Assembly: GCF_038051925.1 (NCBI RefSeq)
Contig: NZ_CP150634.1
Coordinates: 868,001 to 932,000 of the forward strand
DNA length: 64,000 nt
From: Methylotuvimicrobium sp. KM2
GTDB lineage: Bacteria; Pseudomonadota; Gammaproteobacteria; Methylococcales; Methylomonadaceae
Direction: 5' to 3'
Each line of letters begins with the position of its first letter. Position 1 is the first letter of the stretch. Positions 14,794 through 35,294 of this stretch are shown here, piece by piece. The position numbers and the translations under genes were made by a program. Under the pieces are notes generated by a model. It worked only from the letters and a program-made list of their open reading frames with translations, searched no databases and was not told where the DNA came from.

Positions 14794-14794
14794 G

Positions 14795-16608: not shown

Positions 16609-16659
16609 TTCGATTACCAAATTCCGGAAATACAGAATTAACGCGGAAAGGATTGAATC

Positions 16660-16761
16660 ATGTCATTGCAAGCACTTCCAATCGGTCTCAATACATTGTC
16701 GGTGATACGCGAACAAGACTTGGCCTATATCGGCAAAACACCCGTTATTTGGTGCAACTAA
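16660..16761 (+). pseudogene. N-terminal remnant of an AAA-ATPase-like gene
   Basis: A 33-codon ORF with a good ribosome site (GGAAAGGA). It starts MSLQALPIGLNTLSVIRE and continues to DLAYIGKT before a stop. This parallels the start of the intact gene 18 bases downstream (LKKLPLAIQTFAEIRE ... YVDKT), so it looks like the surviving 5' end of a paralogous copy. Confidence 0.6.
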
Positions 16762-16778
16762 CTGAATTGGAATCGGCG

Positions 16779-18356: not shown

Positions 18357-18779
18357 GAAAGGTCGTTCGCGATTGATGATGTTGCATAATGATGCGCGAA
18401 AACACAAACCATCGTTTTAGGCTAAACTATCCAAATGCTATTTCAATCGTCTAATGATCTGAATTCAAATTCAAGGAAAATTCCGAAGTTATAGTTATCA
18501 CGGGTAAAATGCTATCCTGGATAGCAAGTCGATTTAGTTAGAACGTCATATTCGCGAAGAAGCAGGGATCCAGTGTTATGCGCGGCATGCTTTTTCATCC
18601 ATAGGGCTTGGTTTACAATTCAAAATCTTATGCAGCTACCCTATAGCGAGTCGGGCAGGATAGGTTGCCTAGGAATAATTCCCTGCCGGAATAACGTTAT
18701 CAACAATTTGCGAACAATTGGCTGAACGATCTTACAAATCAGGGCATGCTTTCAAAGCAAAAAAATAAAGAACAGAATC
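18357..18779. other. Gene-free leader of the nonulosonic-acid island
   Basis: No gene is visible. It contains a short inverted repeat GCTATC-CTG-GATAGC near 18511-18525. The promoter of the pse operon is expected here, but I could not identify a convincing sigma-28, sigma-54 or sigma-70 match. Confidence 0.4.
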
Positions 18780-19769
18780 ATGCTACAAGGAAAAAATATA
18801 TTGATAACCGGCGGTACCGGGTCCTTCGGAAAGCAATGCGCAAAAGTATTGTTGGAGCGTTACGATCCAAATAAACTGGTTATTTTTTCTAGGGATGAGC
18901 TCAAGCAATATGAAATGCGGCAGGTTTTTAATCAAAAATGCATGCGCTATTTTATTGGCGATATCAGGGATCAAAGTCGTTTGAAGAGAGCGCTGGAAGA
19001 TATCGATATCGTGATACATGCGGCCGCACTCAAACAGGTGCCGGCTGCCGAATACAATCCTTTTGAGTGCATCAAGACCAATGTATTGGGCGCGCAAAAC
19101 CTGATCGAAGCCTGTTTAGATACCGGGGTGCAACGGGTGGTGGCACTCTCGACTGACAAAGCCGCCGCGCCAATCAATCTCTATGGCGCTACCAAGCTAT
19201 GTTCCGATAAGCTGTTTGTGGCCGCCAATAATATTAAAGGCTCTAGAGATATACGCTTTAGTGTCGTGCGTTATGGTAATGTTATGGGTAGCCGAGGCTC
19301 GGTAGTCCCGTTTTTTTTGCAACAACGTAAAACCGGTATTTTGCCGATTACCGACCCGGAGATGACGCGCTTTAATATCAGTCTTCAAGAGGGCGTGGAT
19401 ATGGTGCTCTGGGCGATCGAGAACGCCTGGGGGGGGGAAGTGCTGGTGCCGAAGATTCCCTCGTATCGGATTACCGATTTAGCGATGGCTATTGGTCCGG
19501 AATGCGAACACCGGATAGTCGGGATTCGTGCCGGCGAAAAAATCCATGAGGAAATGATCACCGTCAGCGATAGTTTCAACACGGTCGATTTAGAATCCTA
19601 TTATGCGATTTTGCCGGCGGGAGCCGCATACAACATGAAAAATTATTGCGCCCGCACCGGCTCGCAAAAAGTTCCTCCCGGATTTCGATATGATAGCGGT
19701 AGCAATGAGCGTTTTTTATCGATCGATGAATTACGTTTGTTGGTCGATAGCTTTAGGAATCATGAATAA
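18780..19769 (+). CDS. pseB: UDP-GlcNAc 4,6-dehydratase (inverting), PseB
   Basis: 329 residues. The Rossmann motif is TGGTGSFGKQ. The extended-SDR catalytic set reads STDKAAAPINLYGATKLCSDKL, with Asp-Lys replacing the usual Ser/Thr and the Tyr-x3-Lys pair. It performs the first step of CMP-pseudaminic acid synthesis: dehydration and C5 inversion of UDP-GlcNAc. pseC follows 11 bases after the stop. It opens the island that ends at the flagellin genes, so the product is expected to decorate flagellin. Confidence 0.95.
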   Translation: MLQGKNILITGGTGSFGKQCAKVLLERYDPNKLVIFSRDELKQYEMRQVFNQKCMRYFIGDIRDQSRLKRALEDIDIVIHAAALKQVPAAEYNPFECIKTNVLGAQNLIEACLDTGVQRVVALSTDKAAAPINLYGATKLCSDKLFVAANNIKGSRDIRFSVVRYGNVMGSRGSVVPFFLQQRKTGILPITDPEMTRFNISLQEGVDMVLWAIENAWGGEVLVPKIPSYRITDLAMAIGPECEHRIVGIRAGEKIHEEMITVSDSFNTVDLESYYAILPAGAAYNMKNYCARTGSQKVPPGFRYDSGSNERFLSIDELRLLVDSFRNHE

Positions 19770-19780
19770 GGTTGTTTGGA

Positions 19781-20938
19781 ATGATACCCTATAGCCGGCA
19801 AAGTATTTCAGAGGACGATATTCAAGCTGTGGTCGAGGTGCTAAAGTCCGATTTTTTGACGCAAGGACCTGTTGTTCCTCGGTTTGAGCAATCCGTGGCC
19901 GATTATTGCCGGGCTAGTCATGCCGTGGCGGTCAACAGCGCTACGTCAGCCCTGCATCTTGCCTGTCTGGCGCTGGATGTCAAGTCGGGCGATATGGTTT
20001 GGACCAGTCCGATCACTTTTGTCGCCAGTGCCAATTGCGCGCTGTATTGTGGCGCCGGTGTCGATTTTGTCGACATCGACCCCGATACCTATAATCTAAG
20101 CGTAGAATGCTTGACGAAAAAATTAGCCGAGGCCGAGTGCCAAGGTCGCTTGCCCAAGGTTGTGATTCCAGTGCATTTCGGCGGGTTGTCTTGCGATATG
20201 GTAGCGATCCGCGAATTAAGCCGGCGCTACGGTTTCAAAATTATCGAAGATGCCTCGCATGCGATTGGTGGACGATATCGTGACGAACCGGTCGGAAATT
20301 GTCGTTATTCCGACATCACCGTATTCAGTTTTCACCCTGTGAAAATTATGACTACCGGCGAAGGCGGCATTGCTGTGACGAACGATATCGAACTTGCCCG
20401 AAGAATGGCTTTGCTGCGCAGTCACGGTATCACCCGCGATGCAAATCAAATGACGCATGAACCGGACGGGCCCTGGTATTATCAGCAAATCGAGCTGGGT
20501 TTCAATTACCGGATGACCGACTTGCAAGCAGCGTTGGGGCTGAGTCAGCTTAAACGGTTGGATATATTTGTCGAGCGCCGGCATCAGTTAGCCGGCCTTT
20601 ATAGGCAAAGGCTGATAGATTTTCCGGTAAATTGGCAACTGCAACCGAATGACTGTCGTTCTGCTCTTCATTTGTTCGTTATAAGGTTGCAGAATTCGCG
20701 AATAGGCAAATCCCATTTGGAAGTATTTCGTCTGTTGCGTAATTCGGGCATAGGCATCAACATGCACTATATTCCTGTTCATTTACAACCATATTATAAA
20801 AACAAAGGTTTTCAGCTAGGCGACTATCCGGAAGCCGAAAAGTATTACGGCGAAGCAATCTCATTACCTCTTTATCCCGACTTGACTGAATGGCAACTTT
20901 GCGAGGTAGCTAAGGTTTTGGGGGCAAGTTTAAATTAG
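19781..20938 (+). CDS. pseC: UDP-4-amino-4,6-dideoxy-N-acetyl-beta-L-altrosamine transaminase, PseC
   Basis: 385 residues from the ATG at 19781 (family-typical MIPYSRQSI); a TTG nine bases earlier is possible. It is a DegT/DnrJ/EryC1 sugar aminotransferase, with the PLP lysine in SFHPVKIMTTGEGG (~residue 187) and EDASHAIGGRY upstream of it. It converts the PseB keto sugar to the 4-amino sugar. The next step in Helicobacter, N4-acetylation by PseH, has no GNAT gene in this window. Confidence 0.94.
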   Translation: MIPYSRQSISEDDIQAVVEVLKSDFLTQGPVVPRFEQSVADYCRASHAVAVNSATSALHLACLALDVKSGDMVWTSPITFVASANCALYCGAGVDFVDIDPDTYNLSVECLTKKLAEAECQGRLPKVVIPVHFGGLSCDMVAIRELSRRYGFKIIEDASHAIGGRYRDEPVGNCRYSDITVFSFHPVKIMTTGEGGIAVTNDIELARRMALLRSHGITRDANQMTHEPDGPWYYQQIELGFNYRMTDLQAALGLSQLKRLDIFVERRHQLAGLYRQRLIDFPVNWQLQPNDCRSALHLFVIRLQNSRIGKSHLEVFRLLRNSGIGINMHYIPVHLQPYYKNKGFQLGDYPEAEKYYGEAISLPLYPDLTEWQLCEVAKVLGASLN

Positions 20939-21145
20939 GTTCGGTTGAATCAATGACTGCAAATCAAATCAGAGCCTCCAACTTTTATTAGGCTCTATAT
21001 CTAACGGAATAAAGACAATCAACTGGGTTGTTTAATATTTGAATGGCGAAGTGTAATAAAATGATAGTCCTTGATTATTTTGGTTAATAAGGGGTGTGAA
21101 TAATTGAGGCTTTTTTGTCTCGGTTGTGAATTTAATGGAGCACGA

Positions 21146-21850
21146 GTGAAAATAGCTGTAATACCCGCACGGGGCGGAAGTAAACGTATTCCACGTAAGA
21201 ACATCAAGGATTTTTGTGGCAAGCCGATAATTGCTTGGTCTATCGAAGCGGCCAAAGTTAGCGACCTGTTCGATCATATCATCGTGTCTACCGATGATGA
21301 GGAAATCGCAGAGGTTGCCAGGAACTGGGGCGCAGAAGTACCATTCATGCGGCCTGCAGAATTGTCCAATGATTTTACTGGTACGGGCGCTGTAACCCGG
21401 CATGCTTTGAAATGGTCGCTAGAACATTACGGAGATATCGAGTGCGTATGTACTCTGTATGCTACCGCTCCTTTCATTCGTGCTGCGGATTTACGCGCCG
21501 GTTATCAAGCCTTAGTTGATCAAGCTAAGGCGGCTGCTTTTACCGTGACCAGTTTTCCATATCCAATTCAACGGGCATTGAGGATTACCTCCTCTGGAGG
21601 GGTTGAAATGATGCAACCCGACTATAGAATGACGCGTTCCCAAGATTTGGAGCCTGCTTATCATGATGCCGGTCAGTTTTATTGGGAGCGCACTCCAGCA
21701 TTATTGCAGGATACTTTATTGCCGGCGGATTTAGTGTTACCTATCGTGTTGCCGCGCCATCAAGTACAAGACATCGATACCGAGGAAGATTGGATACGAG
21801 CGGAATTGATGTTCAAAGTTTGGTTTCAAATTCAAAAAAACGCAGTCTAA
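21146..21850 (+). CDS. pseF: CMP-nonulosonate cytidylyltransferase, PseF/NeuA family
   Basis: 234 residues from the GTG at 21146 with GGAG at 21137-21140. The nucleotide-binding signature IPARGGSKRIPRKNI is at the N-terminus, followed by FCGKPIIAWSIEAA and VSTDDEEIAEVA. It activates the nonulosonic acid with CTP for transfer to flagellin. It sits 207 bases after pseC, so it may have its own promoter. Confidence 0.92.
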   Translation: MKIAVIPARGGSKRIPRKNIKDFCGKPIIAWSIEAAKVSDLFDHIIVSTDDEEIAEVARNWGAEVPFMRPAELSNDFTGTGAVTRHALKWSLEHYGDIECVCTLYATAPFIRAADLRAGYQALVDQAKAAAFTVTSFPYPIQRALRITSSGGVEMMQPDYRMTRSQDLEPAYHDAGQFYWERTPALLQDTLLPADLVLPIVLPRHQVQDIDTEEDWIRAELMFKVWFQIQKNAV

Positions 21851-21891
21851 AACGTATCGGGCTTCAAACACAATTACAAAAGGATAAAAAC

Positions 21892-23133
21892 ATGAGCAAC
21901 GAAACCAAGCTGCCCTGGGTTAGCATAGATAGCTTCGTCGGTAATCAAACCGATCCCTCTCTGACTTGCCATCGGCCTTGCCCTGTTTGCGATAGTTTGC
22001 GGTATCGGGTGTTGTTGGAATTCAAAGATTTTCAATTTTTTAGCGATGCGGTCGAATCGCCTAAACGGACGACAGTTCGTAACGTGCAATGCTTAGATTG
22101 CCAAGCGATTTACCTGAATCCTTGCTATAGCTCGGTTGGGTTTGATTATTTATTTGCGGAGGCGGGCTGTAGTTACGGGGCCAGTGAGGGACGTCCGCTG
22201 GAACAACAGAGTTGGCTGGTCGCAAGAAGTTTGCTGAATACTGGAGTAAACTTGTTGGACATTGGTTGCTACGACGGTCGGTTTTTAAGTCAGTTGCCAA
22301 CAAATATACGCCGTATAGGGGTCGACATCGATGCCATTGCCATTGCTAACGGTTTGGCCCAATACGGGGAGGCGGACTTAGAATTGGTGCATGGAGCTTT
22401 CGAATCATTTACATGCCCGATACAACCCGATGTCATCACCATGTTTCATGTATTGGAACATTTGTCCAATCCGCTGGCGGTACTACGGCATTTGCACAAC
22501 TTATCCCATGCCGATACTAAGTTAGTAATTGAAGTGCCAGTGATCGAGTTCGGCAACACCAACGATATTAACGGTTTTTTGTCCGTGCAGCACATGACTC
22601 ATTTCAGTCTTAATAGTTTGCGGCAACTATTGCAACGTGCGGGATGGCTGTTGTTGGAAAGCCAAAAAATAGAGGGTTACAATGGTTACCGGGTGTTGGT
22701 GCAGCCCGGCGAGGTAAGGGACGCCGTGCTCTCCAATTCTGGTGATTTGGGGTTGGCGCATGCGTATTTGGCGCATTGGTTTACCAATTTAGCGACGGTC
22801 GAAAAACGGATTGCCAGTTGTGCCGATGTGCCACGCATGGTGATATGGGGCGGTGGGATGCATAGCGAGTTTGTGTATCAGATAACTTCTTTATTTAGGC
22901 AAAATCGTAAACGCCAATATATCGTGGTTGACAGCGACCCATTGAAACAAGGTAAAAGTTGGCGAGGCTTACCGATTTTTTCATCCAAGATTCTGTCTGA
23001 GATGGATTGGACGGAATGTCGCTTGTTGGTTTCCAGCTACGGCAGTCAGGAGCGGATGGTTACCTCGGCCTTGGAGTTGGGCGTGCCGGCTGAAGCGTTA
23101 GTATGTTTGTACGATATGATTCATGTCTATTAG
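21892..23133 (+). CDS. Sugar C-methyltransferase-like protein (zinc-binding N-term, SAM domain, C-terminal domain)
   Basis: 413 residues from the ATG at 21892 (AGGATAAAAAC upstream). The N-terminus has paired zinc cysteines, CPVC and CLDCQ. The SAM domain motif is LLDIGCYDGRFL (~residue 121), with DVITMFHVLEHLSNP. The C-terminal third (VIWGGGMHSEFVYQI ... LPIFSS) matches the Rossmann-like C-terminal domain of TylC3/NovU-type sugar C-methyltransferases. In this island it probably adds a methyl group to the nonulosonate or its precursor (inference). Substrate unknown. Confidence 0.82.
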   Translation: MSNETKLPWVSIDSFVGNQTDPSLTCHRPCPVCDSLRYRVLLEFKDFQFFSDAVESPKRTTVRNVQCLDCQAIYLNPCYSSVGFDYLFAEAGCSYGASEGRPLEQQSWLVARSLLNTGVNLLDIGCYDGRFLSQLPTNIRRIGVDIDAIAIANGLAQYGEADLELVHGAFESFTCPIQPDVITMFHVLEHLSNPLAVLRHLHNLSHADTKLVIEVPVIEFGNTNDINGFLSVQHMTHFSLNSLRQLLQRAGWLLLESQKIEGYNGYRVLVQPGEVRDAVLSNSGDLGLAHAYLAHWFTNLATVEKRIASCADVPRMVIWGGGMHSEFVYQITSLFRQNRKRQYIVVDSDPLKQGKSWRGLPIFSSKILSEMDWTECRLLVSSYGSQERMVTSALELGVPAEALVCLYDMIHVY

Positions 23134-23246
23134 ATATTAGGACAAGCTTATTCGTTATCGATTACCTGACGGTTTTTAATGTGCCTTTAAAGCCTCTTAG
23201 GAATTAAATAACCATTTTTGAATGAAAGAAATTTTAGAGATAAATC

Positions 23247-23927
23247 ATGAGCCTCAAGTTTATACGCCCTCACGTTGTTTTCAATTTGATCGACCAAGCC
23301 GAAGACTGTTTCAACGAAATGCGCTTGGTCGTCCCTAATCGCCATACCTATACCGGCGGTAGCCCGACGTTGTTGGAAAAAGCGTTGATTTACGCCTTAA
23401 TGAAATACGCTAATCCCAAACGGATATTTGAGTTCGGCACCTATGTGGGTGCTACCACACGGCTTTTTCATGATAATAGCCAGGCCCAAATCTACACCAT
23501 TGACATAGGCAATTTGACTCAGGAAATCTTGGATAAAGAGGTCAATCACGCAGATATCGAATTGATCAAGAAAACCCAGGCGGCTGGGTCGAATCATATT
23601 AAAGGTTTGGATAGAATTACCAAAATTCTTTGCGATTCGACGCAGTATGATTATTCACAATTGCCTACTTTCGATTTTATCTGGATAGACGGCGGCCACG
23701 ATCTTTTTGTCGCTAAACCCGATACCGAACATGCTTACCAAATACTCGATAAAACTAATCCGAATGCCTGTGTCGCTTGGCACGACTATAACAGTGATTT
23801 ATATCCCGAGTTGACGCAATATATCAATGAGATAGCCAACGATAGGGATATATTTTATATTGAGGGTACGATGCTTTGTTTCGCATTACCTAACCAAGCC
23901 GTCGATTTGCCTTCCTCGCTGTATTAA
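23247..23927 (+). CDS. Class I SAM-dependent methyltransferase (Methyltransf_24 type)
   Basis: 226 residues. The SAM motif is IFEFGTYVGATTRLF (~residue 60), with IYTIDIG and FDFIWIDGGHD following, and a WHDY segment near residue 175, typical of the small O-methyltransferases that modify sugars and natural products. It lies between the C-methyltransferase and the transketolase pair, 18 bases before the latter. O- or N-methylation of the flagellar glycan is likely but unproven. Confidence 0.8.
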   Translation: MSLKFIRPHVVFNLIDQAEDCFNEMRLVVPNRHTYTGGSPTLLEKALIYALMKYANPKRIFEFGTYVGATTRLFHDNSQAQIYTIDIGNLTQEILDKEVNHADIELIKKTQAAGSNHIKGLDRITKILCDSTQYDYSQLPTFDFIWIDGGHDLFVAKPDTEHAYQILDKTNPNACVAWHDYNSDLYPELTQYINEIANDRDIFYIEGTMLCFALPNQAVDLPSSLY

Positions 23928-23944
23928 TTAATTTATATCCCACC

Positions 23945-24787
23945 ATGAACGAATTATCGATTAAAGCCAATCAGATTCGACGCGATGCCTTATTCTCGAT
24001 TTACCATGCCGGTTCCGGTCATCCCGGCGGTGCGTTGTCCTGTGCCGATTTGTTGGCCTACTTGTTTTTTGCGGAGGGCGGCAAAACCAAACAAGACCGT
24101 TTTATACTATCCAAGGGTCATTCTTGCCCGATATTGTATGCTGTGCTGGCGGAAGCCGGTTGGATTCCAAAATCGTCTCTGATATCTTTGCGTAAACTAG
24201 GTTCGCCGTTGCAAGGTCATCCGCATGTGTCTGTCATGCCTGCGGTTGAAGCAAGCACTGGTTCCTTGGGACAAGGATTTTCGATTGCGATCGGAATGGC
24301 AATGGGCTTGCGTCAACAAAACGACCCATCGCGAGTTTACGTCATGTTGGGCGACGGCGAACTTCAAGAGGGAGAGGTTTGGGAAGGTGCGATGTGCGCT
24401 GCGCAATTCGAACTGGATAAACTTTGCGCGATTGTTGATTACAATAAAATTCAGAGTGATGACTTCAATGATAATATCATCGGCTTGGAGCCATTGCGGG
24501 CCAAGTGGGAAGCCTTCGGTTGGCTTGTCGTTGAAATCGATGGTCACGACTTCGAGCAGATTGATGCCGCCTTTATTACTGCCAAAAGTTCGAGCTGCAA
24601 ACCGGTGGTTATAATCGCGCATACAGTTAAAGGTCAGGGCGTGTCCTACATGGCTGGCGTGCCGGCCTGGCACGGCAGCGTTAAGTTACGTGCCGAAGAA
24701 CTCCAACAGGCTTTGCGCGATCTCGGCACCGAAGAAGACCGGATACCCGCCTATCTTGACGGCAGTATTTGGAGTGAACGATCATGA
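23945..24787 (+). CDS. Transketolase-like, N-terminal (TPP-binding) subunit
   Basis: 280 residues. The HAGSGHPGGALSCADLLAYL start and the thiamine-diphosphate motif GDGELQEGEVWEGAM ... VDYNKIQ are typical of the N-terminal half of transketolase. The reading frame overlaps the C-terminal subunit by 4 bases (ATGA), so the two form a split enzyme. Split transketolases often serve special pathways. Here it could transfer a two-carbon ketol unit to or from a sugar in nonulosonate assembly (inference). Confidence 0.92.
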   Translation: MNELSIKANQIRRDALFSIYHAGSGHPGGALSCADLLAYLFFAEGGKTKQDRFILSKGHSCPILYAVLAEAGWIPKSSLISLRKLGSPLQGHPHVSVMPAVEASTGSLGQGFSIAIGMAMGLRQQNDPSRVYVMLGDGELQEGEVWEGAMCAAQFELDKLCAIVDYNKIQSDDFNDNIIGLEPLRAKWEAFGWLVVEIDGHDFEQIDAAFITAKSSSCKPVVIIAHTVKGQGVSYMAGVPAWHGSVKLRAEELQQALRDLGTEEDRIPAYLDGSIWSERS

Positions 24788-25764
24788 GCGAGCAGATGCA
24801 AACTATCTCAGCGCCGGTGTTGATTGGTACCAGCGGCGATTCCCTTCGTGAGGCCTTCGGCAGAACCCTGGTCAAACTGGCAGCCAGTCACGCCGATTTT
24901 GTCGTGTTCGATGCCGATGTGGCCGGCGGCACCGGCGTTCACCATTTCCGCAAGGCATATCCCCAACGCTTCTTCCAATTCGGTATCGCCGAGCAAAACA
25001 TGACTGCGGCGGCCGGAGGATTTGCCGCCACTGGCGCGCCGGTATTTGTGACCACTTTTGCCGTGTTTACTTTGCGGGCGTTGGAGCAGGCAAGGCTAGC
25101 GGTTGCTTATCCCAAGCGCAATGTCAAAATTGTCGCCAGTCATCCCGGTCTCGATGTCGGCCCGGATGGTGCGTCGGCACAATGCCTTGAGGACTTGGCC
25201 GTATTCCGATCCATGCCCAATATGGTGGTAGTGTCGCCGGCCGATGCCTTAGAAGTTGAGCAAGCCACGTTTGAAATCTTGAATTATCAAGGTCCTGTTT
25301 ATATGCGTACTGGACGCAGTCCCGCGCAACGTATCTTGCCAGCCGATTATCGTTTTGAATTGGGTAAGGGCAAGATTTTGCGCAACGGCAGCGACGTTAC
25401 AATAGTGGCCTGCGGTGTTGAAGTAGCAAGGGCCCTTGATGCAGCAGACGCGCTGGCAGATCGAGGTATTTACGCACGCGTGGTCAACATGGCTACGCTC
25501 AAACCCTTAGATAGCAATTTATTGAAAATTTGCGCCGAAGAGACAGGCTGTTTTGTAACTGCGGAAGACCACAATATCGTCGGCGGTTTGGGTGGTGCGG
25601 TGGCGGAGTCCTTGGCGAGAATTCATCCCTGCCCGATCGAATTCATTGGCATTCGCGATAGCTTCGGCGAGTCGGGAGAGCCTGACGAATTGGCGGAGAA
25701 ATACCAATTGACTAGCGAGTATATCGCTAACGCGGCGATCAAGGTCATCGGGAGAAAAGTATGA
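24784..25764 (+). CDS. Transketolase-like, C-terminal subunit
   Basis: 326 residues. The pyrimidine-binding domain has FFQFGIAEQNMTAAAGGFAA with the catalytic Glu. HPGLDVGPDGASAQCLEDLA and YMRTGRSP follow, then the transketolase C-terminal domain. It completes the split enzyme begun at 23945 and overlaps the next gene by 4 bases. It is distinct from the Calvin/RuMP housekeeping transketolase, which is normally one ~660-residue chain. Confidence 0.92.
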   Translation: MSEQMQTISAPVLIGTSGDSLREAFGRTLVKLAASHADFVVFDADVAGGTGVHHFRKAYPQRFFQFGIAEQNMTAAAGGFAATGAPVFVTTFAVFTLRALEQARLAVAYPKRNVKIVASHPGLDVGPDGASAQCLEDLAVFRSMPNMVVVSPADALEVEQATFEILNYQGPVYMRTGRSPAQRILPADYRFELGKGKILRNGSDVTIVACGVEVARALDAADALADRGIYARVVNMATLKPLDSNLLKICAEETGCFVTAEDHNIVGGLGGAVAESLARIHPCPIEFIGIRDSFGESGEPDELAEKYQLTSEYIANAAIKVIGRKV

Positions 25765-26507
25765 CGCAAGATAAAGTTGCATTGGTTACCGGATCCAGTC
25801 GCGGTATCGGGTTGATGATTGCCAGAGCGTTGAGTGATGCCGGTCATGCCGTGGCATTGGGTTATGCTAGAAATGCTTCGCTGGCTAGCGCTGAAGCCGA
25901 GAAGATCGTTCGCGCCGGCGGTAAAGCGATAGCTGTCGAAATCATGATTGAGGACCGGGGTAACGTGCGACGAGCTATTGCACGAGTCACCAGTGAGTTT
26001 GGCGACATCGGCATATTGGTCAACAATGCTGCGATTGCTCAAGAAAAGCCCTTCGAAACCATTACCGACGAAGATTGGAACCGGATGATGGATGTCAATC
26101 TGAGAGGCGCCTTTGTATGTTCGCAAGAAGTCATCAACGGCATGCAGAAGAGATCATGGGGGCGCATCATCAATATCACATCGATCGGTGGGCAGTGGGG
26201 AGGCGTTAACCAGGTCCATTATGCCGTCGCCAAAGCTGGACTGATCGGTTTGACGCGGTCCTTGGCCAAGGTGTATTCGAAATTTGGGATAACCACAAAC
26301 GCCATCGCTCCTGGGTTAGTGCAGACCGATATGTCGACCAATGAATTAAATACGGAAGCAGGCCGGGAGAAAGTCAAAAACATACCGGTCGGTCGGATAG
26401 CAACAGTGAATGAGGTGGCATCGGTCGCGGCTTTTCTGGCCAGCGACGATGCAGCCTATATCACCGGCCAGACTATCAACGTCAACGGAGGCATGTATTT
26501 TGGTTAA
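25761..26507 (+). CDS. Short-chain dehydrogenase/reductase (FabG-like)
   Basis: 248 residues. The NAD(P) motif is TGSSRGIGLMIA, with the NNAAIAQ segment, Ser in NITSIGGQWG and the YxxxK pair in HYAVAKAG. The C-terminus, AAYITGQTINVNGGMYFG, is FabG-like. It overlaps the transketolase gene by 4 bases and the ATP-grasp gene by 8. It probably oxidises or reduces an intermediate of the flagellar sugar pathway rather than acting in fatty acid synthesis (context inference). Confidence 0.9.
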   Translation: MTQDKVALVTGSSRGIGLMIARALSDAGHAVALGYARNASLASAEAEKIVRAGGKAIAVEIMIEDRGNVRRAIARVTSEFGDIGILVNNAAIAQEKPFETITDEDWNRMMDVNLRGAFVCSQEVINGMQKRSWGRIINITSIGGQWGGVNQVHYAVAKAGLIGLTRSLAKVYSKFGITTNAIAPGLVQTDMSTNELNTEAGREKVKNIPVGRIATVNEVASVAAFLASDDAAYITGQTINVNGGMYFG

Positions 26508-27726
26508 GACGCTGCTGATCGTCGGCGCTGGGGTGGAGCAGGTACCGGCTTACGAATTGGCCAAAAGGCGAGGTTTTTTTGTGGTCGGTAGCGATATGGA
26601 CCCCGGCGCGCCAGGCTTTGCATTAGCCGATCATGCTATTCTGGTTTCTACTCGAGATGCTGAAGGGACGCTGGCGGCAGCACAATCGTTTCACCAAAGG
26701 CATCCGATCAACGGTGTCATGACTATTGCCAATGACGTACCTTATACGGTAGCTAGAGTGGCGGACGCGCTAGGCTTGCCTTCAATAGATTTGGATGCGG
26801 CACGCGCGGTAATTGACAAATTAGTCATGAAGCGGCGCTTTTTAGATTATGGCGTTGCTTGCCCTTGGTTTACTCAGGTTGATACCGCCGATGAATTACA
26901 GCATGTCTTAGCTACTGAACCGAGACATCGCTTCGTATTAAAACCGGTAGACGGTCGCGGTGCACGCGGAGTTTTATTGATTGATAACTCCGTGGATGTC
27001 GACTGGGCTATTTCGGAGTCTCGGTCTTGGGGCGATTGCGGTAGGCTGATTTTGGAGCGATTCATTCCCGGAATGCAGCTATCAACTGAATCGTTTTTAT
27101 TGAACGGCAAATGTTATACGCCGGCGATCGCAGAAAGAAATTACGCGCGCCTCGAGCAGTTTAAACCCAACATCATCGAAGATGGAGGAACAATTCCGGC
27201 ACTGCTAGATCAAAGTCAATTAGCTTCAATCGACGATTTGTTGTTACGAGGTGCGGCGGCGCTTGGGATTACAGAAGGTATTGTCAAAGGGGATTTGGTA
27301 ATAGATGAACAAGGCCGTCCTATGATCATCGAATTGGCTGCACGTTTGTCGGGTGGATGGTTTGCCACCAAACAAATTCCGGAGGCTTCTGGGGTTAATC
27401 TGGTGGAAGCAGTGATGGATCATGCTTTGGGCAATCCAGTACAAATCGATGACTTGGTGCCTAAACAGCAGCGAGCCACGGCTATTCGATATTTCTTTCC
27501 TCCAGCAGGCAAAATTTTAGCCATTCATGGTGAAGCGGAGCTGAAAACTGTTCCAGGACTACTTAGTTACAGTTTTTACCGAAATGTCGGCGAAATGCAG
27601 CCGACAGTCAAGGCGCACCATGACCGTTTCGGTTATGTATTGGTGTCAGCCGATACTCGGGACGAGGTTCTTCAACGAGTCGAGCAGGCCATTAATAGTA
27701 TAGAAGTTGAGGTTATTAGTGGTTAA
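26500..27726 (+). CDS. ATP-grasp ligase (carbamoyl-phosphate-synthase/amide-ligase type)
   Basis: 408 residues from a TTG at 26500, with GGAGG at 26487-26491. Longer in-frame starts lie inside the SDR gene. The N-terminal pre-ATP-grasp fold reads LLIVGAGVEQVPAYELAKRRG. The ATP-grasp core has FVLKPVDGRGARGV (~residue 150), LILERFIPG and MIIELAARLSGGW. Such ligases join a carboxylate to an amine using ATP. With no PseH acetyltransferase in the island, it might acylate the 4-amino group with a carboxylic or amino acid (inference). Confidence 0.88.
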   Translation: MVKTLLIVGAGVEQVPAYELAKRRGFFVVGSDMDPGAPGFALADHAILVSTRDAEGTLAAAQSFHQRHPINGVMTIANDVPYTVARVADALGLPSIDLDAARAVIDKLVMKRRFLDYGVACPWFTQVDTADELQHVLATEPRHRFVLKPVDGRGARGVLLIDNSVDVDWAISESRSWGDCGRLILERFIPGMQLSTESFLLNGKCYTPAIAERNYARLEQFKPNIIEDGGTIPALLDQSQLASIDDLLLRGAAALGITEGIVKGDLVIDEQGRPMIIELAARLSGGWFATKQIPEASGVNLVEAVMDHALGNPVQIDDLVPKQQRATAIRYFFPPAGKILAIHGEAELKTVPGLLSYSFYRNVGEMQPTVKAHHDRFGYVLVSADTRDEVLQRVEQAINSIEVEVISG

Positions 27727-28570
27727 ATTTATTGCCGAAGTATCCAGCAACCACCGCTGTGATTTGGAGCGTAGCTTGGCCTTTATTGATACAGCCGCCA
27801 AAGCCGGTTGCCAGGCAATCAAGTTTCAGTTATTTAAGATTGATCGGTTGTTTGTCCCGGAAGTGTTAGCCAATTCCGAAAAGCATCGCAAGCGCAGAGA
27901 GTGGGAGTTGCCGGTGGAATTCTTACCTGCTTTGGCTAAGCGATGTCAAGATAAGGGTGTTGAGTTCTCTTGCACGCCATTTTATCTTGAGGCAGTCGCT
28001 GAACTCGAGACCTATGTCGATTTTTATAAAATTGCATCGTACGAGCTTTTGTGGGGGGACTTGCTCATTGCATGCGCTCTTACCGGCAAACCGGTAGTGC
28101 TGTCAACAGGCATGGCTACTATGGAGGAGATTCAACATGCAGTCGATGTGTTGAAAAATAACGGATGCCCTGCACCGGTTTTGTTACATTGCACTTCCTC
28201 TTACCCGACGCCTTACGCCGAGGCCAATCTTGCTGCGATCGATACCCTAAGACGAGAGACGGGTTGCGAGGTTGGTTGGTCGGATCATACCGTTGAACCG
28301 GCAGTCATCCATAGGGCCATTCACAAATGGGGGGCTAAGGTGGTCGAATTTCATCTCGATCTGGATGGCAAGGGTGAGGAATTTGCGGCCGGGCATTGCT
28401 GGCTACCCGATCAGATCGCTGCCGTAATAAAGGATGTGAATAAGGGCATCGAAGCGGATGGTGATGGCGTCAAGGAGCCTGTTCCGTCGGAATTGCCCGA
28501 TCGTATGTGGCGGGCAGATCCTATTGATGGTTTGCGGCCCTTGAAAGAAACTCGAGACCGATTGAAATAA
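27719..28570 (+). CDS. Short NeuB/PseI-family nonulosonate synthase-like protein lacking the SAF domain
   Basis: 283 residues from a GTG at 27719 (GAGG 8 bases upstream). The TIM-barrel synthase core is clear: FIAEVSSNH, CTPFYLEAV, KIASYE, VLSTGMAT, LLHCTSSYPTP, GWSDHT. Family members are usually ~335-350 residues with a C-terminal antifreeze-like SAF domain, which is missing here. The usual EKHFTLDR and GPDH motifs read EFHLDLDG and AAGH. It may condense PEP with a different sugar or act without the SAF lid (inference). Confidence 0.85.
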   Translation: MVKFIAEVSSNHRCDLERSLAFIDTAAKAGCQAIKFQLFKIDRLFVPEVLANSEKHRKRREWELPVEFLPALAKRCQDKGVEFSCTPFYLEAVAELETYVDFYKIASYELLWGDLLIACALTGKPVVLSTGMATMEEIQHAVDVLKNNGCPAPVLLHCTSSYPTPYAEANLAAIDTLRRETGCEVGWSDHTVEPAVIHRAIHKWGAKVVEFHLDLDGKGEEFAAGHCWLPDQIAAVIKDVNKGIEADGDGVKEPVPSELPDRMWRADPIDGLRPLKETRDRLK

Positions 28571-28583
28571 CGTCAGCCTACCA

Positions 28584-29570
28584 ATGAATGTTCTCATTGT
28601 ATGCCATGCAGGAAGTAAGGTCGGGCTTGGGCATTTAACCCGGTCTCTAGCCGTTGCGCGTATCGTGCGGCAGGCATTTGACGTAAGCATTCGCTTTTTG
28701 ATTCAAGGCGATCCGATCGCAAATCCTGAATTGCAGCAATATGAACACTGTTTTTTGTCGATTGGCGAGGATTTGACGAAAATGATCGAGAGGCAACTTG
28801 ATACGTCAGTTTCTCAATTGATTATTTTCGATCTATTTCCAGAGTGGTTGCCGATCGATTTAGCGAAACTCTTGAAAAATTTGCGAGCCAAGGCTTGCAA
28901 AATCATTGCCGTTGACGGTTTACTCAGTTATCAAGATCATTTGGATCTGATTGTCATGCCGTCTTTCCGTTGCCCGCCGGAGGTAGTGGAGAGTCAAGGG
29001 ACTCCAGTGATATATGGTTGGGATTGTTTTTTGCTGAATCCCAAGGCTTATCCTAGGCTTTGGTGTCGTGGCAATCATGTATTGGTTCTGAGCGGCGGTG
29101 CGGATGTTACGGGCTTGGGGCAGAGGCTACCAAGGCTTTTGTTAGATACTTTGCCGCATAATACGCAAGTCAATTGGGTGATCGGCCCCTATGCAAGGCA
29201 ACCCGACTTTCCCGAATCATCAACAGTAATGTTCAACAATCATCAGGCGCCCTCCAGTCTCGATGAACTGATGCTTGATGCTCACTATGCCGTTACGGTG
29301 TATGGCGTCAGTTTTTTTGAACTGCTCTATTACGGCATACCCACAGTGGTGTTTTCGCCCTATGGCAATAAGGATGATGACGAGCTAGGTCTGATCGCGA
29401 AGGAGAATGTTGCTTTGGTGGCCCGTGATGAATTGGATGCGCTGGAAAAACTGCGGAACTTGATGGCGGATGATGAAATGGCCTCCGCGTTTTCTATCGC
29501 CGCTCAAGAAAAAATGGCTGCGGCTAATGGCGGGCGCCTTGTGCAAGCGCTGAACGAGTTATTGGTTTAA
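28584..29570 (+). CDS. pseG: PseG-like UDP-sugar hydrolase
   Basis: 328 residues. The N-terminus MNVLIVCHAGSKVGLGHLTRSLAVA matches the PseG pattern with its catalytic His in GxGH. The C-terminal nucleotide-binding half has VLSGGADVTGLG and a YAVTVYGVSFFELLYYGIPTVVF segment, where the usual PseG SGG/E(L)xxxGxP elements are seen. In the pseudaminic acid route it removes UDP before condensation. It ends inside the start codon of the GH57-like gene (TAATG). Confidence 0.85.
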   Translation: MNVLIVCHAGSKVGLGHLTRSLAVARIVRQAFDVSIRFLIQGDPIANPELQQYEHCFLSIGEDLTKMIERQLDTSVSQLIIFDLFPEWLPIDLAKLLKNLRAKACKIIAVDGLLSYQDHLDLIVMPSFRCPPEVVESQGTPVIYGWDCFLLNPKAYPRLWCRGNHVLVLSGGADVTGLGQRLPRLLLDTLPHNTQVNWVIGPYARQPDFPESSTVMFNNHQAPSSLDELMLDAHYAVTVYGVSFFELLYYGIPTVVFSPYGNKDDDELGLIAKENVALVARDELDALEKLRNLMADDEMASAFSIAAQEKMAAANGGRLVQALNELLV

Positions 29571-31528
29571 TGTCGCACGCCTATCTTATTTTTCATTTGA
29601 ACTTGGCTTTCTCGTCGATTCCTACTGAGGCTCGCCCCGAGGTTATTCGCAAGTGTTATTGGCCTTTACTGGAATTAATCCGTAAAACGAAGGTTCCTGT
29701 TGGAATCGAGTTAACCGGGTGGACGCTCAATCAAATAGTTGAGATCGAACCTGAGTGGGTTGATTGTTTTCGGAGCATGTTGCGAAGCGGGCAGTGCGAG
29801 TTGATCGGTAGCGGTTGGTCGCAAATTATCGGACCCTTGGTGCCCTACCAGGTTAATGTCCGGAATCAAGCATTGGGCCTGGATGCATATCGGCAGTTAT
29901 TGGATGTCGTGCCAAACATTGCATTAGTCAACGAAATGGCTTATTCGACGGGTTTGGTCGACGTTTATGCCGAAGCGGGTTATCGAGGCATTATCATGGA
30001 TAGGGATAATGTAAGGCTCGCATTAGGGTTGGAACACAGCCCGCTATCTACGATGCCTACGCATGCGCAAGGGTGCGGTGAAATTTCTTTGCCTGTTTTA
30101 TGGTCCGATTCGATTTTATTTCAGCGTTTGCAGCGGGTGGTGCATGGGGATATCCTCGTATCGGAATATACATCTTATATCAAGCGACGTATCGAACAGG
30201 GCGAGAGAATGTTGCCTATCTATTGTAACGATGCGGAGATTTTTGATTACCGCCCCGGTCGATTTGCGACCGAGTCCAGGTTGCACTCGGAAGGCGAGTG
30301 GTTGCGGTTCGAAAGAGTTTTGAAACAATTACAAAGCGAATGCGAATTGAACTGGCTTAGTCCGAGCCAGGCGTTGTCAAGGCAGGTTGGCGATACGGAA
30401 AAAAAAATATCCAGGCTCACTTCGATAATCCAACCCGTCCCAGTTAAGAAGCAGGCCAAATATAATATTAATCGTTGGGCGGTGTCGGGGAGAGATGATT
30501 TATGGCTCAATACAGTTTGCCATCAATTATGGCAAGCGATGCAGAAAAGCGGCGAGGATTCTTCCGAATGTTGGCGGGAAGTTTGTGAGTTATGGGCTAG
30601 CGATCTACGTACTCACATCACCGACTTGCGGTGGCAAGAAACGCTTGATCGGATTGTCCGATTAAAATTGAAGTGGGCGCTTGCCGATTCTGTTCCGCGA
30701 GAACACCGAAAGCCTCAAAAGATATCGGAATCCGTGCTTATCGAAAATGATGAGGAAGGGATTTTTCTTACAATAAACACGCCGGCATTGAAATTAGTGC
30801 TGAATAAGCGGCGTGGTATGACAATCCATACTTTGGCGTTCAAATCGCAGGGTTTCGCTGCACTGATCGGCACATTATCTCAAGGATATTTTCAGACTAT
30901 TGAATTAGGTGCGGATTTTTATTCCGGCGGGGTTTTGATAGAAATTCCAAGTCAGCATGCCCGGTTGACTGATTTGGAATGGGTAAGCCCTCAGGTTCAG
31001 CAGTTTGGTAGCGAATTGTCTATTTCTGCGGTAATCGCTTTTGATCAGGGTAAGTTGCGAAAAACTATTCTGGTGGATACCGTTGCCGAGAAAGTACGGT
31101 TACGTTATGAATTCGACGATTATGAGAGACCATTGGGATCGGTGCGTGTGGGCAAGGTGACTTTGTTGCCTGAAGTATTTACGGGAGATTTGACAATTGA
31201 AAGTGTCAATGGGGGGGCTGGAAAGGAGTTGTTTTGTTTGAATCGAAATGTCGATTACGGTAAGGCAGCATCGGTGCTGGTGTCCAGTTCGTCGGCCTTA
31301 GCTTGTACTGATGGCAGAGTTTGTATTCGTGACGATTTGGGCAATGGGGTCGAGTTGGAATGGCATCCTGCTGTTTCAGCGGCAATCGTAATGTTGCAGC
31401 ATGTTCACACTTATGGTGCTCATTTGACTCGATTATGGTTTTCATTGTCAGAACTGGACGATACTTCTCGCCGAGGCGGACGTTTATTACCCTTTGAGTT
31501 TGAAATAAAACCATTAAAAAAAGATTAA
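29570..31528 (+). CDS. GH57-like glycoside hydrolase/transferase
   Basis: 652 residues, translationally coupled to pseG. The N-terminal ~270 residues have the GH57/38-type barrel: FHLNLAFSSIP at the start, GIELTGWTLNQI, LIGSGWSQIIGPL, ALVNEMAYST (candidate nucleophile Glu) and PIYCNDAEIFDYRPGR (candidate acid/base Asp). The C-terminal half is a beta-rich DUF1925/1926-like region. No signal peptide, so cytosolic. A role in trimming or building the flagellin glycan is inferred from position only. Confidence 0.72.
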   Translation: MSHAYLIFHLNLAFSSIPTEARPEVIRKCYWPLLELIRKTKVPVGIELTGWTLNQIVEIEPEWVDCFRSMLRSGQCELIGSGWSQIIGPLVPYQVNVRNQALGLDAYRQLLDVVPNIALVNEMAYSTGLVDVYAEAGYRGIIMDRDNVRLALGLEHSPLSTMPTHAQGCGEISLPVLWSDSILFQRLQRVVHGDILVSEYTSYIKRRIEQGERMLPIYCNDAEIFDYRPGRFATESRLHSEGEWLRFERVLKQLQSECELNWLSPSQALSRQVGDTEKKISRLTSIIQPVPVKKQAKYNINRWAVSGRDDLWLNTVCHQLWQAMQKSGEDSSECWREVCELWASDLRTHITDLRWQETLDRIVRLKLKWALADSVPREHRKPQKISESVLIENDEEGIFLTINTPALKLVLNKRRGMTIHTLAFKSQGFAALIGTLSQGYFQTIELGADFYSGGVLIEIPSQHARLTDLEWVSPQVQQFGSELSISAVIAFDQGKLRKTILVDTVAEKVRLRYEFDDYERPLGSVRVGKVTLLPEVFTGDLTIESVNGGAGKELFCLNRNVDYGKAASVLVSSSSALACTDGRVCIRDDLGNGVELEWHPAVSAAIVMLQHVHTYGAHLTRLWFSLSELDDTSRRGGRLLPFEFEIKPLKKD

Positions 31529-31552
31529 AGTAATTTTGTTGATTGACGATAA
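31526..31552 (+). promoter_or_regulatory. Sigma-28 (FliA) promoter of flagellin 1
   Basis: TAAAGTAA at 31526-31533, an 11-base spacer, then GACGATAA at 31545-31552 is close to the FliA consensus (TAAAGTTT, 11 bases, GCCGATAA). It lies about 90 bases before the flagellin start, so flagellin 1 is a late flagellar gene. Confidence 0.75.
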
Positions 31553-31642
31553 CTCTAGTGAGTTTAGAAACTTCTTTTCAACAATCAAAATAGCATTGTT
31601 TCGGATTGAAATTACATCTGAGGCGAGGTGGAGGATAACATC

Positions 31643-32524
31643 ATGGCAATGGTCATCAACACAAACATCGGTTCGCTGAACAGTCAACGGATGCTGAATA
31701 GTACCAATAATTCGCTGAAAACCTCTATGGAGCGGTTGTCTTCGGGGTTGCGCGTCAACTCCGCAAAAGACGATGCGGCCGGATTAGCGATCGGGAATAA
31801 AATGACTTCGCAGATCCGAGGTATGACAGTGGCTATTAGAAACGCCAACGACGGCATTTCGATGGCGCAGACGGCTGAAGCCGCAATGGGCTCTATTACG
31901 GAAACCTTGCAAAGGATGCGGGATTTGGCTGTGCAATCGTCAAACACGGGTGCAGTGAATGCCGCCGACCAATCAAAGTTACAAACAGAATTTGAGCAGC
32001 TTCAAAAAGAAATAGGCCGAATTATTACCAATACCGAATTTAACGGTAAGAAAATTTTAAATGGCGGATTGTCCGGGCAGGTCTTTCAAGTAGGCGCCAA
32101 CACGACTTCAGATAACCGGATTTCGCTAACTGTAAATAATCTATCGGCAGCAGCTTCAACCGGGTTGGGATCCATACTATTATCGGCTGTAGTGATTGGC
32201 GGCTCGGCCGGGACGAGTGCAGGCGCCACAGCAGTGACCGCAGGTTCTGTCGGAGCGGTCATCGATGGTTTGGATAGAGCGTTAAGCAGAATCGATACGT
32301 TTCGTTCTACTTTGGGCGCGATGCAAAACCGCTTTACGACTACGATTAGCAACCTGCAGTCTTCGATTGAAAATCAAAGCGCTGCGCGGTCGCGGATCAT
32401 GGATGCCGATTTTGCCGCCGAAACCGCTGCTCTAAGTCGAAACCAAATTCTGCAGCAAGCCGGAGTCGCGATGCTGTCGCAAGCAAACCAAGCCCCGCAA
32501 ACAGTGCTTAGTTTGTTGAGATAA
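31643..32524 (+). CDS. fliC: Flagellin 1
   Basis: 293 residues from the ATG at 31643 (GGTGGAGG upstream). The N-terminal D0/D1 region (MVINTNIGSLNSQRML ... SSGLRVNSAKDDAAGLAI) and the C-terminal D1/D0 region (SRIMDADFAAETAALSRNQIL) are canonical. The central variable domain is only about 40 residues, Ser/Gly/Thr-rich, so the filament subunit is minimal and likely relies on glycosylation. It assembles into the flagellar filament. flaG, fliD, fliS and a fliT-like gene follow. Confidence 0.97.
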   Translation: MAMVINTNIGSLNSQRMLNSTNNSLKTSMERLSSGLRVNSAKDDAAGLAIGNKMTSQIRGMTVAIRNANDGISMAQTAEAAMGSITETLQRMRDLAVQSSNTGAVNAADQSKLQTEFEQLQKEIGRIITNTEFNGKKILNGGLSGQVFQVGANTTSDNRISLTVNNLSAAASTGLGSILLSAVVIGGSAGTSAGATAVTAGSVGAVIDGLDRALSRIDTFRSTLGAMQNRFTTTISNLQSSIENQSAARSRIMDADFAAETAALSRNQILQQAGVAMLSQANQAPQTVLSLLR

Positions 32525-32536
32525 AGTGGTAAGATG

Positions 32537-32562
32537 TCGGATGCCCTTTATCGGGCATCCGA
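32537..32562 (+). other. Perfect hairpin after flagellin 1
   Basis: TCGGATGCCC at 32537-32546 and GGGCATCCGA at 32553-32562 form a 10-bp stem with a 6-base loop just after the flagellin stop. No T-run follows, so it may stabilise or partially terminate the abundant flagellin mRNA and lower flaG-fliD expression (inference). Confidence 0.55.
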
Positions 32563-32587
32563 AACAAGGGTGAGTTAGAGGTGGGTT

Positions 32588-33028
32588 ATGAATAATGATA
32601 TTTCAAATGTCACCAGGCTAGGTTTTACATCTTCACCACAAGGCGACGGCAATGCCGCTAAATTTCAGGCTGTTAAAAACAAGCATACAGAGCAAGTAGT
32701 TCCGCCGGATAATGTTCAACGAGTTAATAATAAGGATTCATTGGGCCAAGAGAGAGAATCTGACGGTAAACAAACTGATAATTTGATTTCGTTGGAGGAT
32801 GTCAAGCAGTTGGCGGAGCAAGGGAATAAAGTATTGGCGGAGGCTCAACGGAATCTGCAATTTAAAGTGGATGAGACTACCAATCAAGTGGTGGTTAGCG
32901 TGGTCGACCAAAAAAGCGGCGAGGTTTTGCGGCAAATACCCAGCGATGAGGTTTTGGCGCTAGCGAAGCGTTTGAAGGAATTGGATGGCGAGCAATTGCA
33001 GGGCGTGTTTTTGAAGGAGCAGGCATAG
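32588..33028 (+). CDS. flaG: FlaG family protein
   Basis: 146 residues with a polar low-complexity N-terminus, then the FlaG domain (LQFKVDETTNQVVVSVVDQK ... VLRQIPSDEVLALAKRL) at ~95-140. The family affects filament length and is usually encoded between flagellin and fliD, as here. A GAGGTGGG ribosome site precedes the ATG. Confidence 0.92.
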   Translation: MNNDISNVTRLGFTSSPQGDGNAAKFQAVKNKHTEQVVPPDNVQRVNNKDSLGQERESDGKQTDNLISLEDVKQLAEQGNKVLAEAQRNLQFKVDETTNQVVVSVVDQKSGEVLRQIPSDEVLALAKRLKELDGEQLQGVFLKEQA

Positions 33029-33053
33029 TTTTTATTTAAATTGGGAGTGGGTT

Positions 33054-34406: not shown

Positions 34407-34440
34407 TCAATTAGGATTATAGATAATGAAAGAGGCTAAC

Positions 34441-34842: not shown

Positions 34843-34845
34843 AAA

Positions 34846-35175: not shown

Positions 35176-35193
35176 CTCCGGTTTTTATTTTTT
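35166..35193 (+). terminator. Rho-independent terminator of the fla-fli operon
   Basis: CCGGA (35167-35171), loop TTAAC, TCCGG (35177-35181), then TTTTTATTTTTT. The stem overlaps the stop codon of the fliT-like gene. Confidence 0.75.
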
Positions 35194-35294
35194 CAGTATA
35201 TCCCTTCTTTCATCATGTTTTTTATGATGAATGCGTTCCTCAGATTGTTTTTATTTTCCTGGGCAATGCAAACCGCATTGTGATCGTTGTTAAT

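Follow-up and report, generated by a model that had tools for sequence, protein, structure and literature searches.

We describe a cluster of flagellar glycosylation genes at positions 18780-31528 (forward strand) of a 64,000-nucleotide stretch of the Methylotuvimicrobium sp. KM2 genome (contig NZ_CP150634.1, positions 868,001 to 932,000), hereafter the window. Inside the cluster, a block at 21687-27726 has been replaced as a unit between close relatives, and we lean modestly towards reading it as an exchangeable acyl module on a pseudaminic acid (Pse) pathway that lacks the acetyltransferase PseH. The ATP-grasp ligase of the block, ATPG, probably amide-links a carboxylic acid made by the neighbouring enzymes to the Pse amine. 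Whether this acid is a modified open-chain sugar acid we regard as an even call, and its narrower identification as a hexuronate extended by two carbons falls well below that.

To define the pathway, we used curated NCBIfam cut-offs for PseB, PseC, PseF, PseG, PseH, PseI and NeuB_NnaB and Pfam models for other domains. PseB, an inverting UDP-GlcNAc 4,6-dehydratase (18780-19769; TIGR03589, 530.8 bits, cut-off 407.75), PseC, the aminotransferase that yields the C4 amine (19772-20938; TIGR03588, 558.4 bits, cut-off 423.5), and PseF, a CMP-pseudaminic acid synthetase (21146-21850; TIGR03584, 319.8 bits, cut-off 205.7), all score above threshold. A PseG-like protein (28584-29570) stays under its cut-off (TIGR03590, 59.6 against 153.55 bits). 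No PseH exceeds the cut-off anywhere in the one-contig genome, where the best match to TIGR03585 is a GNAT protein at 26.8 bits against 93.1; a hidden PseH was rejected on this ground. A first-pass annotation, made from the DNA letters alone, had also noted that PseH is missing, and its list of genes (pseB, pseC, pseF, a pseG-like gene, a split transketolase, a short-chain dehydrogenase/reductase (SDR), an ATP-grasp enzyme, two methyltransferases and a GH57-like protein) agrees with the family profiles. That list omitted the synthase gene at 27719-28570, and the exchange of the block was missed. The annotation also described joins of 4-14 bases; with the start codons chosen here, spacing is less uniform, with overlaps of 4, 4, 8, 8 and 1 bases and gaps of 2, 13, 17, 41, 113 and 207 bases.

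The block holds six genes, all on the forward strand: MT1, a methyltransferase with a sugar C-methyltransferase fold (21892-23133; Methyltransf_23, 68.6 bits); MT2, a possible O-methyltransferase (23247-23927; Methyltransf_24, 34.5 bits); TKN and TKC, the N- and C-terminal halves of a split transketolase (23945-24787; PF00456 Transketolase_N, 161.2 bits; and 24784-25764; Transket_pyr, 132.5 bits, Transketolase_C, 101.7 bits); an FabG-like SDR (25761-26507; PF13561 adh_short_C2, 208.2 bits); and ATPG, the proposed stand-in for PseH as an acyl-amine ligase, with a TTG start (26500-27726). By blastn, Methylomicrobium sp. wino1 (locus L062) matches the window at 86-94% identity over 18017-21686 and at about 92% from 27727 to 38067, with a short break at 35298-35473, but it has no nucleotide counterpart of 21687-27726. 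The left border (21686/21687) falls within the 3' part of pseF and the right border at the start of the synthase gene. In place of the window's six genes, L062 carries Methyltransf_23 and TylF-type methyltransferases, a glucuronate isomerase, an SDR, a third methyltransferase and an ATPG that is 29% identical. Because both flanks are kept while the middle lacks a counterpart, the acid enzymes and the ligase were replaced as one block, whereas the Pse genes, flagellin and maf stayed in place.

Five kinds of enzyme occupy this slot at related loci: a split transketolase, an acetolactate-synthase-like enzyme, a DXS-like fused enzyme, a glucuronate isomerase or an IolB/KduI-type isomerase. On a quick tree of 46 synthase proteins, in which the window and L062 are sisters, the five module types require 9 changes against a minimum of 4, and shuffled labels average 15.9 (31 of the 46 rows were labelled by hand and 15 left unlabelled; L065 was omitted as a duplicate). 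Among the 40 loci compared below, only one (L078) combines two module types, and four have ATPG with none of the five slot enzymes. The L062 glucuronate isomerase passes its curated cut-off (575.8 bits; 387), as do 5-deoxy-glucuronate isomerases in L077 and L101 (218.9 and 229.5 bits; cut-off 205). Both isomerase families of the alternative modules act on uronic acids; E. coli KduI, which belongs with IolB to one Pfam family, accelerates the conversion of glucuronate in cell extracts, according to the consulted portion of PMC3578941. As judged from predicted enzyme families, the common denominator of the modules is a set of enzymes making or altering a carboxylic acid beside a carboxylate-amine ligase.

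The gene that adjoins the block, NeuB-short (27719-28570; GTG start, 283 residues), is the only NeuB match in the genome and is therefore the one candidate maker of the nine-carbon sugar. The same result led us to reject a second synthase, whose presence would have left NeuB-short available for a different task. NeuB-short lies under both synthase cut-offs (PseI, 170.2 against 340.25 bits; NeuB_NnaB, 180.1 against 399.65 bits), has no SAF-domain match and, in an alignment with six relatives, shows a conserved C-terminal stretch, WRADPxDGLRPxxxxR. The SAF test alone is not decisive, because this domain, present in the ordinary NeuB of L039 (57.3 bits), is missing from the ordinary NeuB of L040 as well. 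In a scan of genome contigs, at least 40 loci encode a synthase at 59% identity or more, after which identity falls to 38% or less; as the best 80 of 577 confirmed relatives were taken, 40 is a lower bound, and many of these loci are metagenome bins, where contigs can be misassigned. Hosts include Gamma-, Alpha- and Betaproteobacteria, Desulfobacterota, Myxococcota, Acidobacteriota, Nitrospirota, Nitrospinota, Actinomycetota, Verrucomicrobiota and the archaeon Methanocalculus, so that the short NeuB subfamily offers a marker of the system across phyla.

To ask which genes accompany NeuB-short, we compared the fetched flanks of its 40 loci with those of 40 ordinary NeuB loci that the scan also yielded, using score thresholds that we set ourselves. 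ATPG (100 bits or more) is present in 27 of the 40 NeuB-short loci and in none of the 40 others; among the 25 NeuB-short loci that span 18 kb or more, 19 have it. GH57 (20 against 0), SDR (25 against 4) and split transketolase (12 against 1) are distributed similarly, whereas PseC (12 against 13) and acetolactate-synthase-like enzymes (5 against 3) do not separate the sets. Reference proteins for ATPG, GH57, transketolase, SDR, PseB and PseC came from the window; those for DXS, UxaC, KduI and acetolactate synthase were drawn from the compared loci, and counts for these four therefore favour the NeuB-short set. Two of the loci, L033 and L065, are one contig. The first-pass annotation had supposed that related gene sets may exist in other flagellated bacteria, and they do recur, near maf, flagellin or pse genes.

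Within the window's own class, 7 of 369 sampled genomes have a NeuB at 61% identity or more (next best, 41%), and the same 7 have a close ATPG (39% or more, nearly full length); these are not seven independent events, because three share one family. In genomes G033, G204, G233 and G307, the ATPG and NeuB-short genes are not adjacent, being either on separate contigs or some 28 kb from each other. Another 71 genomes have ordinary NeuB matches only (E 1e-20 or better), and in two of these (G269 and G141) a distant ATPG sits beside the ordinary synthase. PseH over cut-off is found in none of these nine genomes, seven with cassette genes and two with distant ATPG; G141 has a GNAT domain of 43 bits right inside its cluster. 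The grouping of these genes, in the 40 loci and in the same 7 of 369 genomes, is more than chance. No match to ATPG was found in viral contigs.

ATPG carries an ATP-grasp domain and the L-amino-acid-ligase domain LAL_C2 (56 bits). Its predicted model has a mean predicted local distance difference test score (pLDDT) of 92.6, and the best fold match is the L-amino acid ligase BL00235 (3vot; Z 40.6, root-mean-square deviation 2.5 over 383 residues), followed by 4dim (Z 37.3) and PurT (Z 32.5). BL00235 shares with ATPG the full-length fold and LAL_C2, but only 21% identity, and the substrates predicted for ATPG are a sugar acid and an amino sugar. By domains and modelled fold, ATPG is an ATP-grasp carboxylate-amine ligase of L-amino acid ligase type, with amide formation as its predicted reaction. 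In four cassettes (L066, L067, L089 and L101) there are three ATP-grasp proteins each, which might mean that more than one acyl or amino-acyl group is attached, one after another; the cassette at L101:7755-20724, from the archaeon Methanocalculus taiwanensis, groups its three ATP-grasp proteins in a single run with PseB, PseC, NeuB-short, a formyltransferase, an IolB-type isomerase and a class III aminotransferase.

TKN and TKC together have the three transketolase domains, and the nearest match to TKC is the C chain of the Carboxydothermus split transketolase (295 bits). In 12 of 13 TKC sequences, the window's included, and in all four further Shewanella sequences, Ala replaces the conserved His of the motif DGPTHQ, which we take to be the active-site residue His473 of E. 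coli; the genome's own tkt (L142) keeps the His, as does the thirteenth TKC (L072), beside which no ATPG was found. Similarly, the Arg of the motif YPRG, which presumably binds the phosphate of the usual DXS acceptor, is absent from all six DXS-like cassette proteins and a seventh (L078) but kept in the genome's two own DXS. Both changes point to altered substrates. For the acetolactate-synthase-like enzymes, a pattern for one lysine position matched 6 of 15 rows, all with Met and two from the same contig, which is a hint only. Separately, G000:C1:4880185-4885885 holds two equal-scoring transketolase matches about 5.2 kb apart, with two DXS genes elsewhere in the genome.

Because a sequence search of the PDB gave only one weak match for MT1 (29.9 bits), we modelled the protein (mean pLDDT 80.7). 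Over its full length, the model resembles the sugar C-methyltransferases KijD1, TcaB9 and MtmC, with 13 entries at Z 27.9-28.9 over 355-365 residues and the next at Z 17.1. Such enzymes methylate next to a ketone, and a thiamine diphosphate (ThDP)-dependent carboligase would create a ketone of this kind. We infer from the modelled fold that MT1 may C-methylate beside a ketone.

The first-pass annotation knew of no biochemical account of the extra enzymes. There is one of a related locus: for sfmABCDE of Shewanella oneidensis MR-1, deletion phenotypes and glycopeptide mass spectra are reported, although no enzyme assay appears in the consulted portion of the paper (PMC3765264), to which all statements on MR-1 data below refer. 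Of 117 sampled Shewanella genomes, 23 have an ATPG match. We fetched regions from 20 of these (the other three are L079, L087 and L100; L182 and L088 very likely represent one genome), and all 20 contain NeuB-short and GH57. The ThDP slot is occupied by an acetolactate-synthase-like enzyme in 6, a split transketolase in 4 and a DXS-like enzyme in 10. One of the four transketolase loci, L193 (1-16501), has TKC, an MT1-like gene, ATPG, PseB and Maf in fragments, and is decayed or badly assembled. In L186, gene lengths of 873, 1746, 768, 1188 and 1239 bp equal the published sfmABCDE lengths and a FliA site starts 57 bp upstream, as published, so we take L186 to be MR-1 or a near-identical strain.

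Ligase identities suggest which modules share a product. Between three transketolase-type and six acetolactate-synthase-type Shewanella loci, ligases are 60.8-79.2% identical. Across 39 ligases, these two types average 47% identity with each other and 50 and 52% within types, compared with 38-39% to the DXS type, 33-34% to the KduI type and 31% to the glucuronate-isomerase type. Since ligases are nearly as alike between the two types as within them, split transketolase and acetolactate-synthase-like enzymes probably make the same acid, or nearly so.

This brings the MR-1 glycan to bear on the window. Serines of MR-1 flagellin are modified by a unit of 274 Da (C11H18N2O6), in all likelihood mono-N-acetyl pseudaminic acid, which bears a nitrogen-free unit of 236, 250 or 264 Da (C9H16O7, C10H18O7 and C11H20O7) whose structure was not solved in that work and for which no oxonium ion was detected (PMC3765264). 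With PseH missing, the C4 amine would be left free; the formula of the 274-Da unit after loss of its substituent shows as much. No clear PseH, PseG, PseI or PseF was identified in that study (PMC3765264). Downstream of sfm, L186 encodes a 574-residue cytidylyltransferase-PseG-like fusion (13002-14726, forward strand), which, from its domains, may fill the PseF and PseG roles reported as missing.

We propose the following scheme, each reaction of which we infer from enzyme family or predicted fold. From their family definitions, PseB and PseC would yield a UDP-sugar that is acetylated at N2 and has its C4 amine free. In the window, the ThDP enzyme is the split transketolase, which would extend a sugar acid, most likely a hexuronate, by two carbons at its aldehyde; MT1 would C-methylate beside the resulting ketone, the SDR would reduce the ketone and MT2 may O-methylate. 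ATPG would then activate the carboxylate with ATP and amide-link the acid to the C4 amine (later N7), the amine that PseH would acetylate. NeuB-short would make the nine-carbon acid, PseF would activate it and Maf would transfer it to flagellin. The first-pass annotation had proposed that the ATP-grasp enzyme could attach an unusual acyl or amino-acyl group at this amine, and the comparison of loci supports ATPG as probably replacing PseH. It had offered two roles for the transketolase and SDR; making the acyl group is the probable one by the same comparison, whereas alteration of the nonulosonic carbon chain is unsupported, because PseB, PseC, PseF, the PseG-like protein and a single NeuB already account for the nine-carbon sugar.

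The arithmetic of this scheme fits the MR-1 masses. A hexuronate plus an acetaldehyde unit, C2H4O, and 2H, less H2O, gives a computed acyl addition of C8H14O7 (222.074); one C-methyl raises it to 236.0896 and O-methyls to 250.105 and 264.121, the three published formulas. Measured totals of 510.2093, 524.2299 and 538.2403 (PMC3765264) compare with computed values of 510.2061, 524.2217 and 538.2374. Transfer of a glycolyl rather than an acetyl unit would shift the predicted mass by 15.995 Da. The fit does not prove the scheme, because other acids share the formula: a heptonic acid carrying two methyls, or an unmethylated dideoxynononic acid, would weigh the same, and this counts against the specific structure proposed.

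Deletion phenotypes cut both ways. Mutants in sfmA, sfmB and sfmD made almost no filaments and sfmC mutants still had a visible flagellum; flagellin of all four was of about unmodified size. Mutants in the ligase gene sfmE kept filaments and swimming, with a pronounced but slightly smaller shift, and we count the retained motility in favour of an acyl group (PMC3765264). Several observations weigh against it. Pure acyl-donor mutants should resemble sfmE, but deletion of sfmB, C or D resembles deletion of sfmA (PMC3765264); it is possible that the ligase then attaches a wrong acid, giving a dead-end product that blocks later steps. In the authors' interpretation, the 274-Da part has a basic amino group, and doubly charged ions of the intact modified peptides are part of their evidence (PMC3765264); a free amine in the intact glycan would place the outer unit on oxygen; we consider the charge argument weak, because the peptide has a Lys and a free N-terminus, and still count it. 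That the outer unit is readily lost in the source would likewise suit a glycosidic bond. No ATPG was seen at 13 of the 40 NeuB-short loci, 7 of them on stretches of less than 18 kb. GNAT domains are encoded in two related clusters, L077 (57.7 bits) and L040 (42 bits; 43 to PseH, under its cut-off). The Ala in TKC would leave transketolase activity unassured, L063 and L064 have no MT1-like gene, and SfmD is only 23% identical to MT1 (hhalign 99.3). Finally, GH57 is conserved yet has no role in the scheme, in which the uronate source and the two-carbon donor are likewise unplaced. In L077, the GNAT domain is N-terminal in a 500-residue protein of the NeuB-short cluster that also has a PseG-like match (13895-15397, forward strand), and an acetyltransferase may coexist there with a ligase.

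Several of these points would suit an outer unit that is a separate sugar, such as a methylated branched octose, glycosidically linked to mono-N-acetyl Pse through one of its hydroxyls. The branched sugar would be the product of the ThDP enzyme and SDR, a GH57 or Maf-like protein would transfer it, and ATPG would add something small or act elsewhere. An octose residue has the same formula, C8H14O7; in-source loss, the inferred free basic group and the only slightly smaller shift upon sfmE deletion all agree with this (PMC3765264), and GH57, whose nearest solved relative is a glucanotransferase, accompanies 20 of 40 NeuB-short loci and none of the 40 ordinary ones. We nevertheless consider a separate sugar unlikely: no oxonium ion of the outer unit was detected (PMC3765264), family scans found no ordinary glycosyltransferase in the window block, and a side role for ATPG leaves unexplained why, of all neighbours, it stays closest to NeuB-short and is exchanged together with the acid enzymes.

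Much less probable is that flagellin carries ordinary pseudaminic acid acetylated by an unrecognised GNAT, the block serving another surface sugar. The genome's GNAT protein and the GNAT domains of L077 and L040 would allow this; against it, the sole NeuB gene sits between the ligase and PseG-like genes directly ahead of flagellin, and the same gene set in MR-1 is required for flagellin modification (PMC3765264). Least credible of all is that the transketolase and SDR change the carbon chain of the nonulosonic acid itself: NeuB-short is divergent and its substrate predicted only, but the MR-1 inner unit has the plain mono-N-acetyl Pse formula (PMC3765264), PseB, PseC and PseF score above cut-off, and the synthase flank is retained when the transketolase is replaced.

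A wider idea, which we consider less likely than not, is that flagellar Pse bears an interchangeable acyl code: three kinds of ThDP carboligase, two uronate isomerase families and, more distantly, sulfolactate enzymes would each supply a different acid to a co-exchanged ATP-grasp ligase for amide linkage to the Pse amine. The sulfolactate case is L039 (9423-13644), where a distant ATPG adjoins a ComA-ComB (phosphosulfolactate synthase-phosphatase) fusion (253.7 and 133.6 bits); its possible product is sulfolactyl-pseudaminic acid, with a predicted acyl increment of 151.978 Da. L039 has an ordinary, SAF-bearing NeuB with PseB, PseC and PseF, and no PseH match was found in its genome. Sulfolactyl was rejected as the acyl group of the window itself, where no cluster gene matched ComA or ComB.

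Were the scheme to hold, C-methylated uronic acids lengthened by two carbons would join the natural N-acyl groups as a new class, and transketolase-type enzymes would gain a new role in making glycans. On the wider idea, microbes, one archaeon included, would change surface type by block swap, much as with O-antigen clusters. The scheme offers testable chemistry for the 236/250/264-Da group of S. oneidensis flagellin, unsolved in the 2013 paper, and suggests a reason for the missing PseH; the window and L062 record a natural exchange of the whole putative module between close relatives.

The GH57-like protein (29570-31528; PF03065, 51.3 bits; 4-alpha-glucanotransferase 1k1w, 27.9 bits) is followed by flagellin (31640-32524; Flagellin_N, 147 bits, Flagellin_C, 93 bits), both on the forward strand, and by a Maf-type flagellin glycosyltransferase on the reverse strand, outside the swapped block (35470-37971; PF01973, 156.1 bits). 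Beyond maf, 38334-39218 (reverse strand) is probably a second flagellin gene; sequence adjoining it aligns with a partial flagellin at the L062 terminus. On the 5' side of pseB, 16605-18356 (forward strand) encodes an AAA-ATPase_like and PDDEXK_9 protein that apparently has no tie to the pathway. Sigma-28-like sites number 27 on both strands at two mismatches or fewer, mostly by chance; of the two with one mismatch, one lies within pseF and the other at 31526, ahead of flagellin.

In the open-access literature we found no account of the module exchange, of the short NeuB subfamily or of a transketolase in such a role, and no later structure of the Shewanella glycan; the consulted main text of a 2026 Clostridium survey mentions neither ATP-grasp nor transketolase. 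Precedents do exist for parts of the scheme. Campylobacter jejuni makes a Pse with a Cj1295-dependent di-O-methylglyceroyl group, an O-methylated hydroxy acid on flagellar Pse as proposed here, but this is listed as Pse5dimethylglycerate7Ac, with the group at N5 and N7 acetylated, and the consulted portion of that paper mentions no ATP-grasp enzyme, transketolase or SDR (PMC3068675). In the type B flagellin locus of Clostridium difficile, the ATP-grasp gene CDR20291_0245 is needed for a terminal sulfonated peptidyl-amido sugar, although the glycan core there is GlcNAc-rhamnose, not Pse, in the part of the report consulted (PMC5207246). Compared with the canonical CMP-Pse5Ac7Ac pathway (PseB, C, H, G, I, F), the window shares PseB, PseC and PseF and differs in having no PseH over cut-off, a short synthase under the PseI cut-off and a PseG-like protein under its own. 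The closest known system is sfmABCDE (SO_3261-3265), in which NeuB-short, a ThDP enzyme, an SDR, a methyltransferase and an ATP-grasp ligase lie together near maf, GH57, pseC and pseB, as in the window. It differs in gene order, in its cytidylyltransferase-PseG-like fusion in place of separate PseF and PseG-like proteins, and in its acetolactate-synthase-like ThDP enzyme. Because a split transketolase replaces that SfmB-family enzyme, the window locus, with the rest of the sfm-type gene set near maf and flagellin, is a variant of the sfm type rather than sfm proper.

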